Positions 38,962 to 46,069 of a stretch of DNA of 64,000 nt are shown here, one piece after another. The DNA comes from Flavobacterium anhuiense (GTDB lineage: Bacteria > Bacteroidota > Bacteroidia > Flavobacteriales > Flavobacteriaceae): assembly GCF_004151235.1 (NCBI RefSeq), contig NZ_JUIV01000001.1, positions 124,001 through 188,000 of the forward strand, given 5' to 3'. Position 1 is the first letter of the stretch. Each line of letters starts with the position of its first letter. The translations under genes and the position numbers were made by a program. Under the pieces are notes generated by a model, which was not told the origin of the DNA, searched no databases, and saw only the letters and a program-made list of their open reading frames with translations.

Positions 38962-40014
38962 ATGAGCGAGCCTTTAATGGTTTTAAAAAAACCGTCTTTT
39001 CCTTTAACACAACCACTTTTAAGTTATTTAGAGAGATATGAGCGTATTTCTAAAGTTTCTGTGTTTTATGATGACTTGCTGCGTTTTTCGGGTTCGATAA
39101 ATGTTTATGATAAAAATGATACTGACACACTTTGGATTCGGGTATATTACGGCGAATTTGAACGTAATGAAATTGATTTAAACCTGAAGAAAATATATTC
39201 GCTTTTGCATTCTGATGGAAATAACGAAATTATTCAATACCTGAATGTCGATGCAATTGATTATTGTACTTTCGGAAATTCGAAACCTTTTAGAATTAAA
39301 GTTCGAAATATTCTCAACGATAATTATGTCCATTTTTACATCAAAAAAGCAGACGCTTCTCGTATTTACGGACTGGAGTTGGAAGATATTCTTTCACCAG
39401 ATAAAATCAACTTTTTGGTTTATAAAGACACTTTGATCGAAGAACATATTATCGGAATTCCTGGTGATGTTTTTATGGATACTTTGCTTGATAAATGTAG
39501 TGAAATGGAAAAAGCACAGATTGCCAAAGAGTTTGTCAAGTTTAATGAACGCTGTATGATTCGGCTTTTGGGTGACATGCGCGCGTACAATTATGTAATT
39601 GTCCCGATTCACGATTTTGATCAAGTAGTCTATAAAATCCGTCCGATTGATTTTGACCAGCAATGTTACGAAGGGAATTTTAAAGTGTATCGTCCGCAAT
39701 TTTTCAAAGAAAATTTTCCGATGATTCAATTGATTAAAGAGAAACTGGAAGAGCGTTCAATCATTCAATATAAAGATGAAGAAAGAGCGATTTTGGCAAA
39801 ACGTATTCATTCAGCCGAAACGAGAATCAAAAAATTGCTGAATATTATGTGTCACGATACCATCTCAACACAGGAACATTTACTGCAATTAAAAATGGAA
39901 TTATACCGTTACACGAACGATATGAAATTTAAAAATGCAAAATCAATGGGGCACATCATGCACGCCGCATTTGAATTTATTACCCGTAATTTTAAAAACA
40001 CTAACTTAGTTTAA
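38962..40014 (+). CDS. Conserved protein with protein-kinase-like motifs, unknown function
   Basis: I do not recognise a named family. The 350-residue soluble protein has motifs in the order of a protein-kinase-like fold: a beta-strand Lys (VHFYIKKAD, Lys128/129), a following Glu (YGLELED), a hinge-like LIEEHIIGIPGD, a catalytic-loop-like LLGDMRAYNYVI (Asp205, Asn210) and a metal-site-like RPIDFDQQ (Asp230). This resembles the HipA, phosphoinositide-kinase and aminoglycoside-phosphotransferase arrangement. A helical C-terminus (about 255-345) follows. It is divergent from the ABC genes and 90 bases before the beta-propeller lipoprotein gene. The kinase reading is inference only. Confidence 0.6.
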   Translation: MSEPLMVLKKPSFPLTQPLLSYLERYERISKVSVFYDDLLRFSGSINVYDKNDTDTLWIRVYYGEFERNEIDLNLKKIYSLLHSDGNNEIIQYLNVDAIDYCTFGNSKPFRIKVRNILNDNYVHFYIKKADASRIYGLELEDILSPDKINFLVYKDTLIEEHIIGIPGDVFMDTLLDKCSEMEKAQIAKEFVKFNERCMIRLLGDMRAYNYVIVPIHDFDQVVYKIRPIDFDQQCYEGNFKVYRPQFFKENFPMIQLIKEKLEERSIIQYKDEERAILAKRIHSAETRIKKLLNIMCHDTISTQEHLLQLKMELYRYTNDMKFKNAKSMGHIMHAAFEFITRNFKNTNLV

Positions 40015-40104: not shown

Positions 40105-40962
40105 ATGAAAAAATCATTTTTAGTAGCCGTTTCTATTGTTTTACTAGCTTGTCAGAAACAATCTGGTTCTGATTTGAAAGAACTTTATTCGCTTCCGAAA
40201 AAATTAAAAGAAGTCTCTGGAATAACTTATTTTCCTGAAATCAAAACCCTTTATACGTTAGAAGACAGCGGAAATAAAAATGCGATTTATGCAATCGATC
40301 ATAATGGGAAATTAGCTAAAACAATCACGATTTCAAATGCCACAAATGTAGATTGGGAAGACATTACGAAAGACAAATCGGGAAATATCTACATTGGGGA
40401 TTTTGGAAATAATGATAACGAAAGGAGAGATTTGTGCATTTATAAAGTGGCAAAAAATGAATTGAATAATGATTTAGCTAAAGCTGAATATAAAATTTCA
40501 TTTTCGTATCCTGAACAAAAGGAATTTCCTCCAAAGAAAAAAGAAATGTTCTACGATGTTGAAGGTTTTTTTGAGCAAGGCGGCTATTTCTATCTTTTTA
40601 CCAAAAACAGAAGTAAAGGTTTTGATGGCACTGCTTTTATCTACAAAATCAAAAATGCTGCAGGAACTCAGAAAGCAGTAAAAATTGGAGAATTTAAAAC
40701 TTGCAGCAATTACAATCACTGTGTACTAACAAGCGCAACGATAAGTCCAGACGGAAAAAAAGTAGCTTTATTAAGTCATGATAAAGTGCTTTTGTTTAAA
40801 AACTTTAAAGGAGATTTATTTCATAAAGGAACTCAAACAGAATTAAATTTAAATCACTTTTCGCAAAAAGAAGCAATTGTTTTTAAAGACAACAACACTT
40901 TACTTATAGCAGACGAAAAAACAAACAAAATAGGTGGAAAGCTCTATGAATTTAGAATCTAA
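40105..40962 (+). CDS. Predicted beta-propeller lipoprotein (YjiK/SdiA-regulated-like)
   Basis: A 285-residue lipoprotein: lipobox SIVLLAC with Cys16. Repeated blade-like segments such as LKEVSGITYFPEIKTLYTLEDSGN, TNVDWEDITKDKSGNIYIGDFGNN and YDVEGFFEQGGYFYLFTKNRS suggest a beta-propeller, and the 'EVSGI...LYTLEDSGN' opening resembles the SdiA-regulated/YjiK group. The acidic EDITKD and GDFGNND turns could bind calcium. Function unknown. It ends beside a 21-bp inverted repeat shared with the convergent metallophosphoesterase gene. Confidence 0.68.
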   Translation: MKKSFLVAVSIVLLACQKQSGSDLKELYSLPKKLKEVSGITYFPEIKTLYTLEDSGNKNAIYAIDHNGKLAKTITISNATNVDWEDITKDKSGNIYIGDFGNNDNERRDLCIYKVAKNELNNDLAKAEYKISFSYPEQKEFPPKKKEMFYDVEGFFEQGGYFYLFTKNRSKGFDGTAFIYKIKNAAGTQKAVKIGEFKTCSNYNHCVLTSATISPDGKKVALLSHDKVLLFKNFKGDLFHKGTQTELNLNHFSQKEAIVFKDNNTLLIADEKTNKIGGKLYEFRI

Positions 40963-41123: not shown

Positions 41124-44100
41124 CTAGAAGCTGTAAGCTGCTCCAAAAATCAATCTTCCAATTTCATCAGGAGATTTAAAATATGAGATTCTTGCGGTAA
41201 TGACATTTATCGCATTCAACCAAAGTCCGCCGCCGTAATCTTGGTGCCATTTTTTAGAATTTTCGCCATCAAGCCAAACTCTTCCGTAGTCGAAACCACC
41301 TAAAATTCCGTAAGTAAAAGGAACAATCGTTTTGCGGATTTTTCCAATGCTTAAACGCAAATCAGAACTTTGAGAGAAGTACGAACTTCCTAAGAAACGT
41401 TCGTTTCTAAAACCGCGTAAATCAGTATCGCCTCCTAGAGAAGCACCTTGATAAAATTCGTAATTATTATTGAAAATCGCTTTTCCTTTTACGTAAGTTG
41501 CTAATATCAATTTTCCGTTGTGATCAATTTTATGCGTAAAACCTAAAATACTTTCAAGTGTTGGAAAATTCTTTTTTGTCTCGTCAAGATTTGTTGTCCA
41601 AGTTCCTGCAACCATAAAATACATTCCTAGTGTAGGTTTTGCAGCAAAATCTGAATTTTTAAAGACATACTTAACTTTTAAGCTTCCGAAATTCTGGCTG
41701 TCAAATACCTCTGGATTTACAATTCCAGGAATATTGATATATCTGTTTTCAGTATCTTCAACCGTCATTCTTTGGAAAATGGGTTGAATGCTAAATTCGC
41801 TTCCGTATCTTCCAACGTGACGAATAGCGCCCGAAGCATTAAATTTTCTAATGCGAACACGATTGTAATCCATTCCTAAATCGTCATCGTATTGGGATTC
41901 ATTTCCGTAACCAAAATAGTTCATGGCAAAATTTGGAGTTGTATACAATGATTCGACATCAATAACCCATTTCCCTAATAAACCAGGGAAATGTGCTGCA
42001 TAATTAAATTCTAAACCGCCTGTGGCAAAATAGTAGAAAGCATTAAAAATATGTCTTTGCGTGTACGGATTTTGTTTAAAATTATTAACGGTATAATTTA
42101 CGTTGACTCCAACTTTTACACCATCATCCGGATTATAGCCAATGTTTGGAAGACCAGAAACTACATTGTATTTTGGTCTTTCATAATTGTATGCATTAAC
42201 TTCATAATCGTCTGTAAGTTGTGTTTGTGTTTTAGAATCAAGATTGTATGTGTTTTCTTTTGATTTAAAATCATAAACAATAACCTTTCTTCCGTTTTCA
42301 ATGTTATAAGTGTCGTTGTTCTGACCTCCAATCAAACGAATTTTAATGTTAGATTTTTCGTTTCCTTTTACTTCAAAAACATCATTATCATCTAATCCGT
42401 AAATCCAAAGATTTTTGGTCTTAGCATCAGTTACGTTTTTGGTGTAAAGCAATTCATCTCCGTCTTTTTTAATTCTGAAAACCTGAATTTCAATACCTTT
42501 CTTTACATTATGATTTAAAACAAACTTGTCTTTTTTGTCTGTTCCCGCAATCATAACGGTTCTATCTAACACTTCAGAATACTCGCGAGCATATTTCTGA
42601 AGATCTTTTTTTCTGCTTTTTAGTTTTGCTTTGATTTCATCAACCGTTTCGTCTTGAACTTCTTTTGGCATGTTTTTGAAAGCCAAATCAATATCTGCAT
42701 CAGTTAAGTTCTCCTGAATATATTTGGCCTGTTCAACCCATTCTTTTTCTCCGGCAGTTTTTAGAAATGCCAAATCCATTGGGTAAGGTTCTCTTCCAAG
42801 CCATTTCACGTTGATTCTGTCTCCTTTGAAAGTTCGCATATGACGAAGCGGAGGCATATTCATTATAAGTGAAAGCAAAGCGCCATCATATTTTACAAAA
42901 GCCTGATCACGGTCACGCGGAATAGGTCTGTAAATTACTTTTCCATCTTCTTTATATTCAGCCCAGCGCCATTGATCGCTGTGACGATCCCAATCTCCCA
43001 AAAGAATATCAAACAAACGCGCTTTGATATATTCTTTTTCATCAACAGTATATTTTTCATCTTTATGAAGATTCAGCATCATATCATCAGTCCCGATGAT
43101 GTTACTTGGTTTGCCAAAATTTTTGCCATCAAGATGATTATCAGCAGGTCTTTCTTCAACCATGTATAATTGGTCACCAAAACTCGCATTAAATTCGCCT
43201 AAACCATTTTGTTTCGGAATATAATATAAAATAGGATTTGTATGTCTTAGTCCAATCTGATCAGACATGCTGCCGATTGCAAAAGACGAATAAGGGTGAG
43301 AAGTCGTATAAAAATCAAACAAGAAATCTTCTGCGTATGTCTTTTCAAATTCATTCACCACATATTGATCTTTAAAAGCTACCGACTGTAAAAATGTCGT
43401 TGCACTTTTCTTCATAGCACGCATAACATATTCGCGGCCTTGAGGATCAGACATTCTCAAAGAAATAGATTGATGTCCTCCGCCTTCACGAATTGGTTTT
43501 AAGCCTCCTTTTAAAGTGTCAACCGTAGCAGTTGTCGCTTCAATTGGCATACTATAATATTTTCTATAATGCTGACCGAATAAAAATCTATGAAACGCAC
43601 TTTTTTGAGTCATTTTGGGAGAATAAATAGAAGTGGTCACGGTTGAAGGAAACTTATTGGGAATATCTGAAGCCCAGTTAATTTCTTTTGCTTTTATAAT
43701 TTCGCGTTCAAAAAGCAGTTTTTCTTTGCCGTTTTCATTTCCATAAAAAGAAACTTTTGCATCTCCGCTTTTAAACATAGTTAGTGTAGCATAGCCATTT
43801 CCTCCATACGAAAAATCATAAGGGTTGATCGCTCGTGCAGCCTCAGATTTTGAACCTGCACCACTGATAATCTGTTGGATATTTTCTTTGCTGATGTATT
43901 GCAGATTATGATCGTGACCAGAAACTACAATGACATTTTTTTGCTTTTGCAAAAGCGTTTTAATTCTTTTAGTATAAATCGTATATTGTTTGTTCTGAAT
44001 ATCTTGCGGATTTACACCAGAAGTTTTTCGTAATAAATTGATAAACGAACCAATTATCGGAAGCGGAATTTTTTGCTCTAAAGGAAATAATTGTTTTTCT

Positions 44101-44855
44101 AATGAAAATTGTCCGCCATGTGTTCCGTTGCTTAGTAAGGGATGATGGATAGCAAGGACAACTGTTTTCTCTTGATTTTTGTTTAAAAGACCTTCAAGCT
44201 CTTCAAAAAAAGCTTCTCTGGTTTTAATTTCGCAATTGTCATTTATCGTAGGATGGTCGTTCCAATCTTCAAGAAACCATTCACTATCAACAGCTATCAA
44301 AGTAGTTGTGCTGTCAATTTTTACGTTTTCAATCGGACAGGATTTTCTTGGAAGAAAACCTTTTTTATCATTTAAATATTTCGTTACAAAATCAGCCTGA
44401 CGCTCTAGGCCTTTGATGCCGCTGTACCAATCATGATTTCCTGGAATTACGACTGTTTTTCCTTTAAAACCTTCAGTTAATTTTAATTGATTGGTTAATT
44501 TGGTTTCTGCTAAAGCCTTGTCTTCTGGATGCTTATCGCTCGGAAAACCCTTCGGATAGATGTTGTCTCCTAAGAAAAGAAGCGTCGATTTTTTACTTGC
44601 TTTTTTTAGTTTTTGGTGCAAAAGTTCCAGCGTTTGTTGTGCTTGTTCTTCGTCTGCATTTCCAGCATCACCAACCAGAAAAAAAGTATGTGCAATTTTT
44701 ATGGTATCTGTCGCGTTTTCTGTTTCGTTGGCACTTACATTTTTTCCGTATTGCGGTTTTCGCGTTGCGCAGGCGTAGACAATGAATAGGGCAATAATTG
44801 CCAAAGAATAGTTTTTAATCTTAGCAATAAAATGATTATCCAAAAACAATTTCAT
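41124..44855 (-). CDS. Metallophosphoesterase / kinase-like / outer-membrane barrel fusion protein
   Basis: A 1243-residue envelope protein with a lipobox-like signal (FIVYAC, Cys29). Residues about 55-390 are a calcineurin-type phosphoesterase: FLVGDAGNAD, LFLGDNIYP, VIPGNHDWY, AIHHPLLSNG, VSGHDHN. Residues about 455-655 look kinase-like: a Gly-rich REGGGHQSISL, EYVMRAMKK with a possible ATP Lys, FDILLGDWDRHSDQWRW (620-629) and IPRDRDQAF (645-653), the last two resembling the catalytic and metal-binding motifs of HipA- and lipid-kinase-like folds. From about 890 to the end is a barrel with DTDLRGFRNERFLG and a final AAYSF, like Omp85/surface-antigen proteins. The head-to-head neighbour is the HD-PycTM gene. 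Phosphoesterase and barrel calls are firm; the kinase-like call is inference. Confidence 0.8.
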   Translation of the reverse strand: MKLFLDNHFIAKIKNYSLAIIALFIVYACATRKPQYGKNVSANETENATDTIKIAHTFFLVGDAGNADEEQAQQTLELLHQKLKKASKKSTLLFLGDNIYPKGFPSDKHPEDKALAETKLTNQLKLTEGFKGKTVVIPGNHDWYSGIKGLERQADFVTKYLNDKKGFLPRKSCPIENVKIDSTTTLIAVDSEWFLEDWNDHPTINDNCEIKTREAFFEELEGLLNKNQEKTVVLAIHHPLLSNGTHGGQFSLEKQLFPLEQKIPLPIIGSFINLLRKTSGVNPQDIQNKQYTIYTKRIKTLLQKQKNVIVVSGHDHNLQYISKENIQQIISGAGSKSEAARAINPYDFSYGGNGYATLTMFKSGDAKVSFYGNENGKEKLLFEREIIKAKEINWASDIPNKFPSTVTTSIYSPKMTQKSAFHRFLFGQHYRKYYSMPIEATTATVDTLKGGLKPIREGGGHQSISLRMSDPQGREYVMRAMKKSATTFLQSVAFKDQYVVNEFEKTYAEDFLFDFYTTSHPYSSFAIGSMSDQIGLRHTNPILYYIPKQNGLGEFNASFGDQLYMVEERPADNHLDGKNFGKPSNIIGTDDMMLNLHKDEKYTVDEKEYIKARLFDILLGDWDRHSDQWRWAEYKEDGKVIYRPIPRDRDQAFVKYDGALLSLIMNMPPLRHMRTFKGDRINVKWLGREPYPMDLAFLKTAGEKEWVEQAKYIQENLTDADIDLAFKNMPKEVQDETVDEIKAKLKSRKKDLQKYAREYSEVLDRTVMIAGTDKKDKFVLNHNVKKGIEIQVFRIKKDGDELLYTKNVTDAKTKNLWIYGLDDNDVFEVKGNEKSNIKIRLIGGQNNDTYNIENGRKVIVYDFKSKENTYNLDSKTQTQLTDDYEVNAYNYERPKYNVVSGLPNIGYNPDDGVKVGVNVNYTVNNFKQNPYTQRHIFNAFYYFATGGLEFNYAAHFPGLLGKWVIDVESLYTTPNFAMNYFGYGNESQYDDDLGMDYNRVRIRKFNASGAIRHVGRYGSEFSIQPIFQRMTVEDTENRYINIPGIVNPEVFDSQNFGSLKVKYVFKNSDFAAKPTLGMYFMVAGTWTTNLDETKKNFPTLESILGFTHKIDHNGKLILATYVKGKAIFNNNYEFYQGASLGGDTDLRGFRNERFLGSSYFSQSSDLRLSIGKIRKTIVPFTYGILGGFDYGRVWLDGENSKKWHQDYGGGLWLNAINVITARISYFKSPDEIGRLIFGAAYSF

Positions 44856-44881: not shown

Positions 44882-46069
44882 ATGAATCTAATAGAACAAT
44901 CCGAAGATTTCGTGAGTAATTTACTCAAAGATAAACTTTCTAATTTATATTCTTACCATAATTTTAATCATACTTTTACAGTTGTTACTGCAGTTAGGGA
45001 ACTTTGCAAAAAAGAAGATGTAAGCGGTGAGGATAAGGAAGCACTTTTGGTTGCTGCATGGTTTCATGATACGGGATATATTGAAGGGTATGAAAATCAT
45101 GAAAAAACAAGTACAAAAATTGCTACTGAGTTTTTACGAGAAAAAGGAAAATCGGAAGAATTTATCGCGCTTGTTTCGAGTTTGATTCTAGCTACTGTAA
45201 AAGAATATGAGCCTAGAACGCACTTAGAAAAGATTATTCGTGATGCAGATTATGCTCATTTAATGGGAGCTGAATATGCGACAACTTGCGAATTATTGCG
45301 TTTGGAATTAAAAAATGCAGGAATTGTGAGTTTTTCTAATGAAGAATGGACTAGAGAAAACCTGAATTTTTTATTGAATAAACACAGATTCTACACAGAT
45401 TATGCCTTGAGAAAATGGCAGCCTCTGAAAGAAAAAAATCTTTTGTTGATTCAGAAAAAAATCAATAAACAGGAATTGAAAGCTGCCGCAGCACTCGAAG
45501 AAGAAAATAAGAAGAGAGAGAAAGCTGAAAAAGCTGAAAAACCAGATCGCGGAATTGATACTTTATTTCGTGTCACACTTGGGAATCATACGCGTTTAAG
45601 TGGTATTGCAGATAGCAAAGCTAATATTTTACTGTCTGTAAATGCCATTATTATTTCGATAGCTTTATCATCTATTATTCCAAAACTAGATAGTCCGAAA
45701 AATGCGCATTTGGTCGTGCCAACCTTTATAATGCTGATGTCAAGTGTAATCACGATTATTTTTGCGATTCTGTCTACGCGCCCAAAAGTAACATCGGGAT
45801 TTTTTACGCGAGATGATGTAGAAGCTAAAAAAGTGAATTTGATGTTTTTTGGAAATTTCTACAAAATGCCTCTCGAAGATTATGATTGGGCAATGAATGA
45901 AATGATGAAAGATCGTGATTATCTGTATTCAACCATGATCAAAGATTTATATTATTTGGGATTGGTTTTACAGCGAAAATATAATTTACTTCGAATTGCC
46001 TACAATTTTTTCATGTTTGGAATTATCATAACGGTAATTGCATTTGTGATTGCTTTTAAGTCCATTTAA
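44882..46069 (+). CDS. HD-domain protein fused to a Pycsar-effector-type membrane domain (PycTM/DUF5706)
   Basis: A 395-residue protein. The N-terminal HD domain (about 15-180) has metal-site residues His30 (NFNHT), His62-Asp63 (WFHDTGY) and Asp121 (IRDADYAHL), as in HD phosphohydrolases acting on nucleotides. A Lys/Glu-rich helix (about 182-222) leads to a C-terminal domain (about 225-395) with DTLFRVTLGNHTRLSGIADSKAN and three membrane helices (near 248-268, 276-298 and 372-393), the pattern of the PycTM effector domain of cyclic-pyrimidine anti-phage systems. No pyrimidine cyclase gene lies nearby. It starts 26 bases from the divergent metallophosphoesterase fusion. It could be an orphan defence effector or a housekeeping nucleotide hydrolase. 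Confidence 0.85.
   Translation: MNLIEQSEDFVSNLLKDKLSNLYSYHNFNHTFTVVTAVRELCKKEDVSGEDKEALLVAAWFHDTGYIEGYENHEKTSTKIATEFLREKGKSEEFIALVSSLILATVKEYEPRTHLEKIIRDADYAHLMGAEYATTCELLRLELKNAGIVSFSNEEWTRENLNFLLNKHRFYTDYALRKWQPLKEKNLLLIQKKINKQELKAAAALEEENKKREKAEKAEKPDRGIDTLFRVTLGNHTRLSGIADSKANILLSVNAIIISIALSSIIPKLDSPKNAHLVVPTFIMLMSSVITIIFAILSTRPKVTSGFFTRDDVEAKKVNLMFFGNFYKMPLEDYDWAMNEMMKDRDYLYSTMIKDLYYLGLVLQRKYNLLRIAYNFFMFGIIITVIAFVIAFKSI

Follow-up and report, generated by a model that had tools for sequence, protein, structure and literature searches.

A predicted atypical kinase-like domain between a phosphoesterase and an Omp85-type barrel in a Flavobacterium lipoprotein

A single gene in the window (the 64,000-nucleotide stretch of the Flavobacterium anhuiense genome analysed here) encodes a protein in which a lipoprotein signal is followed, in order, by a phosphoesterase, a kinase-like region (residues about 420-790), an all-beta linker and an Omp85 barrel (Table 1). 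Calculation gave the order of these parts, the predicted class of the kinase-like fold, the conservation of active-site residues in both enzymes, and an Omp85 barrel that lacks POTRA. The reading favoured here, with a probability of about 0.5, is that the protein is a lipoprotein-barrel of the outer membrane whose two enzyme domains, a phosphatase of TRAP-like type and a kinase of the atypical CotH/PI4K-II kind, face the periplasm, and that it would act as a phosphotransferase on a component of the cell envelope.

An identical architecture was found in 121 sequences, the window's copy among them, drawn from the best 80 of 584 relatives and from 41 rows of a sample of the phylum. The only Pfam results on the window protein were PF00149 and a sub-cut-off match to DUF5982 (residues 899-931), while NCBIfam returned the Omp85 barrel below cut-off and weak phosphoesterase matches; residues 420-790 of this protein carried no label from either collection. 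A domain search of the protein's own genome found this one copy only.

Table 1. Features of the lipoprotein-barrel gene, in positions of the window
Feature	Position	Strand	Basis
Whole gene, 1243 aa	41124..44855	minus	one intact ORF
Lipoprotein signal peptide, residues 1-28, and lipobox Cys29 (..FIVYAC/ATRKPQ)	44769..44855	minus	sequence
Calcineurin-like phosphoesterase, residues 58-316	43908..44684	minus	PF00149, E 6.6e-12
Kinase-like (PKL-fold) domain, residues 420-800 as modelled	42456..43598	minus	AlphaFold2 model and structural matches
Glycine-rich loop, G458-G460	43476..43484	minus	conserved 81-85% in 75 rows
R479 and K483, candidate nucleotide-phosphate ligand	43407..43421	minus	87% and 91% conserved; beta-strand predicted at 475-480
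E567, acidic residue close to where a predicted strand ends (hinge side)	43155..43157	minus	89% conserved; putative role
D621-W-D623-R-H625, catalytic-loop motif	42981..42995	minus	aligned with CotH and HipA catalytic loops
D648-R-D650, metal-site motif	42906..42914	minus	aligned with CotH PxDxD
All-beta linker, residues 776-880, ten predicted strands	42216..42530	minus	model of residues 770-1243
16-strand Omp85-type barrel, residues 898-1241, LRGF motif	41133..42164	minus	model and structural matches

Predicted fold and putative active site of the kinase-like domain

The first-pass annotation of this DNA had placed a kinase-like domain between the phosphoesterase and the barrel, and had named structure prediction with a fold search as the check. 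The AlphaFold2 model of residues 420-800, built with 66 sequences (pLDDT 84.0, pTM 0.84), and its structural matches bore this out: the domain is predicted to have the two-lobe kinase-like fold of the PKL superfamily in an atypical form, with CotH, PI4K-II, CtkA, PI3K/VPS34 and HipA among its likenesses. In a Foldseek search of the PDB, E values of 0.001 or better were reached by CtkA (1.9e-4), Rio2 (6.1e-4) and a bacterial kinase complex (8.5e-4), and these were followed by HipT and HipA. The CtkA match had a probability of 1.00, a TM score of 0.43 by query length and an rmsd of 8.2; i.e., the global agreement was moderate. A second look with VIA-align placed B. cereus CotH first (Z 15.1, 249 residues, 3.9 Å, 14% identity), followed by PI4K-II alpha (Z 14.4, 269-273 residues, 9-12% identity), CtkA (13.6) and HipA (11.3), with PI3K gamma and VPS34 at about 11 to 12 and the Golgi casein kinase at 10.6; the tool's note gives a Z of 7 to 8 as typical of models without a clear match. 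CotH was absent from the Foldseek matches listed, though first in VIA-align, and it was treated as tied with PI4K-II because their Z scores differ by less than 1.

With CotH and PI4K-II alpha ranked so closely, the type of substrate is not readable from the structural ranks. The tie gives some weight to a narrower version of the favoured reading, in which the enzyme would be a lipid or glycan kinase on a leaflet of the outer membrane (acting on lipid A, a phospholipid or a lipid-linked glycan) and not a protein kinase. The scores of PI3K and VPS34 point the same way, as do the membrane anchors at both ends of the chain, which fit a membrane substrate, but CotH, a protein kinase, headed the VIA-align list and gave the better of the two profile matches (CotH and HipA); this narrower version is possible, though on the unlikely side.

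In the profile comparisons, the domain matched CotH with an E of 1.5e-4 and a probability of 51%, with GDWDRH falling on the catalytic loop and PRDRD on PYDYD, the PxDxD site, and matched HipA with an E of 0.013 and a probability of 3.4%, the GDWDRH loop again being aligned. The comparison profiles were built from Bacteroidota matches of PF08757 (CotH) and PF07804 (HipA_C), neither of which matched the window protein or anything elsewhere in its genome. These alignments, modest in score, agree with the earlier assignment of the catalytic loop and the metal site and, together with the conservation of the residues, they point to the catalytic-loop Asp and metal-site Asp of the PKL superfamily. 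The list of sequence-profile matches in the PDB was topped by CtkA at a non-significant E of 0.083, with the D621-D623-H625 motif aligned. When single relatives were compared with Pfam, CotH was matched by 2 of 47 with a best E of 0.013, which is at noise level, as the unrelated EnY2 appeared in the same list at 0.015; HipA_C was likewise matched by 2 of 47 (best E 0.18), and NCBIfam gave only odd matches to relatives, such as GlgX at E 0.0019. The domain shares with the CotH family its fold and the order of its motifs, and falls short of the curated Pfam score.

It is very improbable that the motifs are coincidental and the fold unrelated to kinases. In favour of such a view, neither Pfam nor NCBIfam matched the window protein to a kinase and the matches of its relatives were weak, but the model is confident, kinases head both structural lists and the motifs are conserved. 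Chance resemblance to kinases was rejected on the predicted fold and this conservation. The kinase fold is a predicted one, and such a fold does not by itself establish that the domain acts as a kinase.

All four motifs named by the first-pass annotation lie where it had put them in the single intact ORF: GGGHQSISL begins at G458, EYVMRAMKK contains R479 and K483, LGDWDRHSDQW contains D621 and D623, and IPRDRDQAF contains D648 and D650. The residues singled out here, E567 among them, also proved to be conserved, and all rank within the top 48 of 372 domain columns in an alignment of 75 rows, where identity to the window's residue had a median of 0.36. In these rows the identity was 0.84, 0.85 and 0.81 at G458, G459 and G460, 0.87 at R479, 0.91 at K483, 0.89 at E567, 0.95 at D621, 0.85 at D623, 0.81 at H625, 0.89 at D648 and 0.87 at D650. 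The rows comprised 74 relatives picked from the phylum-sample search matches and the window's own copy; they came from 70 loci, 30 of them best-scoring and 40 being regions hand-chosen for variety, and some may share a species with rows of the best-80 set. Further alignments combined the window sequence with 46 of these domain rows (A1), with 65 of 80 loci (A3) and with 62 of 79 complete ones (A4). The part of the ATP lysine could be taken by R479, inside the predicted strand, or by K483, just after it, both of which are candidates in the model.

Conservation was nearly complete among the 121 phosphatase-fused sequences (the best 80 of 584 and the 41 phylum-sample rows). D623 was kept in 120 of these and D648 and D650 together in all 121, and the four residues K483, D623, D648 and D650 were intact in 119 (79 of the best 80 and 40 of the 41); the exceptions were L136, in which K483 is replaced, and L074, in which D623 is replaced. 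The best 80 of the 584 relatives were retrieved with the motifs DWDRHxDQ and P[IV]PRDRD, and their intact sites are therefore partly a product of the search.

Phosphoesterase, barrel and probable cellular location

The first-pass annotation had remarked on the combination of a phosphatase-like and a kinase-like domain on one chain with a barrel, and both partners were recovered, as a PF00149 phosphoesterase and an Omp85 barrel. Against a TRAP chain, the phosphoesterase gave a whole-sequence E of 3.3e-6, made up of two pieces each weak alone. Residues D63, D97, Y100, N140, H237, H314 and H316, which we take to be metal ligands after the purple-acid-phosphatase (TRAP) pattern, are each at least 97% conserved in the 121 sequences (best 80 of 584 plus 41). 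From the TRAP alignment and this conservation, all seven metal-ligand residues of the purple acid phosphatase/TRAP type appear to be present, including the Tyr of GDNxY. The ligand pattern fits a TRAP-like enzyme with a putative di-metal centre and putative phosphatase activity.

The model of residues 770-1243 (pLDDT 85.4, pTM 0.75) contains ten short strands, one helix and 16 long strands. As the linker is all-beta and the sole helix is four residues long (884-887) and stands just ahead of the barrel, there is no POTRA domain. The barrel has the 16 strands of the Omp85 superfamily; it matched Sam50, TamA and BamA with Z scores of 22.7-25.2 among the matches listed, BamA in Foldseek with an E of 1.8e-11, and NF047779 with an E of 2e-16, scoring 60.5 bits where the cut-off is 200. 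According to the available excerpts of an Omp85 survey, POTRA domains are also absent from the Metallo and noNterm subfamilies (PMC4104836).

A lipobox was called, by a simple rule of our own applied to the sequence, in 78 of the best 80 of 584 relatives and in 33 of 41 phosphatase-fused frames of the phylum sample. In excerpts of the literature on Bacteroidota, surface lipoproteins have acidic residues beside the Cys (for F. johnsoniae, of SDDFE-like form; PMC5080379), and a surface-export (LES) rule asks for a pair of acidic residues near the lipobox Cys (PMC5080379, PMC12578637). The window protein has ATRKPQ after Cys29, with no acidic residue at +2 to +7 and hence not the two of the LES rule, and 69 of the 78 relatives with a lipobox likewise have none in the six residues after the Cys. 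In PlpD, another fusion of an enzyme to an Omp85 barrel, the enzyme domain was found in the periplasm, as excerpted from PMC11116518. Because the lipobox lacks a surface-export motif and the PlpD enzyme is periplasmic, the enzyme domains more probably lie on the periplasmic side of the outer membrane, by sequence and by analogy.

An alternative, judged unlikely, is that the barrel or the lipoprotein export route delivers the enzyme part to the cell surface, where it would scavenge phosphate or act on external substrates. Type Vd secretion was the route initially proposed for patatin-Omp85 proteins (excerpt of PMC11116518) and many Bacteroidota lipoproteins are surface exposed (excerpts of PMC12578637 and PMC5080379), but both the residues after the lipobox Cys and the place of the PlpD enzyme speak against it.

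Relatives, lost active sites and gene neighbourhood

Counting the protein's own genome in both, the domain has relatives in 112 of the 296 genomes sampled from the phylum and, within the genus, in 109 of 199; the latter count rules out a universal core gene of the genus. The best 80 of 584 relatives were mostly from Flavobacterium, Chryseobacterium and other Flavobacteriia, with domain identities of 49-88%, and the phosphatase-fused form was found across several families. Four architectures were seen: phosphatase-kinase-linker-barrel, kinase-linker-barrel, kinase-linker of lipoprotein length, and a short form with an N-terminal membrane anchor. The N-termini (up to 14 per class) have signal-like or membrane-anchor segments, judged from the residues themselves. 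The short form, with an intact site, occurs in four genomes of the window's family (L041, L042, L046 and L073) and is probably an inner-membrane form. One genome has three lipoprotein-length kinase-like genes side by side (L040:3626-8651), and another locus, L039, has two divergent copies of the kinase-like gene.

In two genomes, L043 and L044, separate genes for the kinase-linker, the phosphatase and the barrel stand side by side on the same strand, with gaps of 13 and 17 bases in L043 and of 6 and 14 in L044. This arrangement suggests a functional link between the phosphatase and the kinase-like domain; as both genomes come from one genus, it counts as one event.

The four-residue site was intact in 6 of 8 phosphatase-less forms of lipoprotein length, in all four short membrane-anchored forms, and in 11 of 22 proteins that join the kinase-like domain to a barrel without a phosphatase. 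The other eleven of these 22 (L050, L057, L058:3452-6112, L059-L064, L066 and L067) have active-site losses and are likely pseudokinases; in some of the degenerate ones the N-terminal part of the domain was unmatched too. These losses imply that the domain can serve without catalysis. In a tree of 65 rows, 20 of 22 phosphatase-less barrel forms fell outside the group holding all phosphatase-fused rows, the two inside being L056 and L050, of which L050 is of unsure place because it is degenerate and on a long branch. The tree omitted 10 near-identical rows, and several degenerate rows sit on long branches where placement is unsure.

The raw difference between 119 of 121 and 11 of 22 was considered as a sign of mutual dependence between the phosphatase and an intact kinase site, and this was rejected, as it was not significant once relatedness was counted. 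The relatedness-aware test had 5 independent pairs (median p 1), or 3 among barrel-bearing rows (median p 0.5), and such numbers of pairs are too few for significance in any case.

A kinase fold may also serve other chemistry or binding only, such as AMP transfer, glutamylation or, as a nucleotide or metabolite sensor, control of the phosphatase. Precedents for other chemistry on PKL folds exist in SelO and SidJ. The periplasm, moreover, is taken to be without ATP, so that a periplasmic kinase would need another donor or a brief supply. The eleven barrel relatives with lost sites would suit such a role, as would R479, which in the model occupies the strand position where Lys is usual. Retention of the catalytic Asp residues in 120 or 121 of the 121 phosphatase-fused sequences argues against it, and for the window protein it is regarded as doubtful.

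The surroundings of the gene were compared over flanks of about 5 kb, some loci being incomplete at their ends. The divergent neighbour (44882-46069, plus strand) encodes an HD domain with a Pycsar-effector-type membrane domain (PF18967, E 1.3e-36) and has a homologue in 66 of the best 80 of 584 loci. Homologues of a GAF protein occur in 60 of the same 80, and those of the convergent neighbour, an SdiA-regulated/phytase-like lipoprotein (40105-40962, plus strand), in 65. Because these neighbours recur across the best 80 of 584 loci, the place of the gene appears to be old and fairly stable. Beyond the convergent neighbour lies a 350-residue protein with no Pfam match (38962-40014, plus strand), which 20 of the best 80 of 584 loci share at 79-97% identity. 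Its LLGD..PIDFDQQ looks kinase-like, and it was considered as a second such kinase and set aside, the profile comparison being unsupportive (E 0.16 against the kinase-like domain, 0.33 against HipA and 0.21 against CotH).

Proposed function and comparison with known systems

In the favoured reading, the TRAP-like phosphatase and the kinase-like domain would sit together at the outer membrane, facing the periplasm. The kinase-like domain would phosphorylate some part of the cell envelope, be it protein, lipid or glycan, its phosphatase partner may remove the same mark or clear a by-product, and the Omp85 barrel would keep both enzyme domains at the membrane. A bolder version is that the chain is a write-and-erase device, present in much of Bacteroidota, that adds and removes phosphate on an outer-membrane component with the barrel as anchor or substrate gate. 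Its donor would not be cytoplasmic ATP, and might be a lipid diphosphate or a nucleotide from outside. This version is tentative and, as a whole, rather unlikely.

Bacterial phosphorylation beyond the cytoplasm has been little studied because ATP is not expected there. The present domain, of predicted kinase fold, is conserved and apparently exported, has relatives in more than one third of the sampled phylum genomes, and often comes with a phosphatase and a barrel. Whether the outer membrane is reversibly marked with phosphate, and from which donor, can thus be addressed through a specific gene.

Among known kinases, CotH (PF08757) likewise works outside the cytoplasm, and it is the top VIA-align match with an aligned catalytic loop and PxDxD site. 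The window's domain differs in being fused to a phosphatase and a barrel, in belonging to a Gram-negative envelope and in lacking a Pfam match. In B. subtilis CotH, a protein outside the alignments used here, the D228Q and D251A forms are inactive (excerpt of PMC7821199). PI4K-II alpha, tied with CotH, and the PI3K-type enzymes were compared by structure alone and, unlike the window protein, are cytosolic eukaryotic lipid kinases of low identity. CtkA tops the Foldseek list and, non-significantly, the PDB profile list, and HipA and HipT are also structural matches; unlike the window protein, these are cytoplasmic or delivered proteins.

A pair that resembles the window protein in its working only is found in animals, in which Fam20C, a secreted kinase of CotH-related fold, and the phosphatase TRAP both act on osteopontin. 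These are two separate proteins, and common descent of the pair is not implied. On the kinase side, the Golgi casein kinase also appeared as a structural match (Z 10.6). Excerpts describe the action of TRAP on osteopontin (PMC5486932) and the relation of CotH to Fam20C (PMC7821199).

No report of a kinase-like domain in a protein of this kind was found in the open-licence literature, which leaves most subscription papers outside. Part of that literature was a kinome survey (PMC9758233, in excerpt); in the available text of two papers on the Bacteroidota outer membrane (PMC12578637, PMC12045153), the words kinase, phosphatase and phosphoesterase are absent. PlpD, the type Vd patatin-Omp85 protein, is similar in that an enzyme stands ahead of an Omp85 barrel and is periplasmic (excerpt of PMC11116518), and differs in that the enzyme is a patatin lipase, in having POTRA and in having neither kinase nor phosphatase.

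The nearest description is that of the Omp85 'Metallo' subfamily, for which Heinz and Lithgow (2014) reported PF00149 and left the function open, according to the excerpts of PMC4104836. It too joins PF00149 to a POTRA-less Omp85 barrel. There, the PF00149 domain, a calcineurin-like phosphoesterase in Pfam, is termed a metalloprotease, no kinase-like domain is described and the word kinase is absent from the available text of the paper (PMC4104836). From the two descriptions, 'Metallo' is probably the window protein's own family; the identity is likely and not proven, because the range given in the excerpts, with conservation only at the level of the genus (PMC4104836), is narrower than that found here, where the fused form spans several families. 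The present analysis may supply a class of function for a subfamily to which the 2014 survey gave a metalloprotease label. What is known is the Omp85 subfamily that contains this family; what is new is a kinase-fold family that has no Pfam or NCBIfam name.
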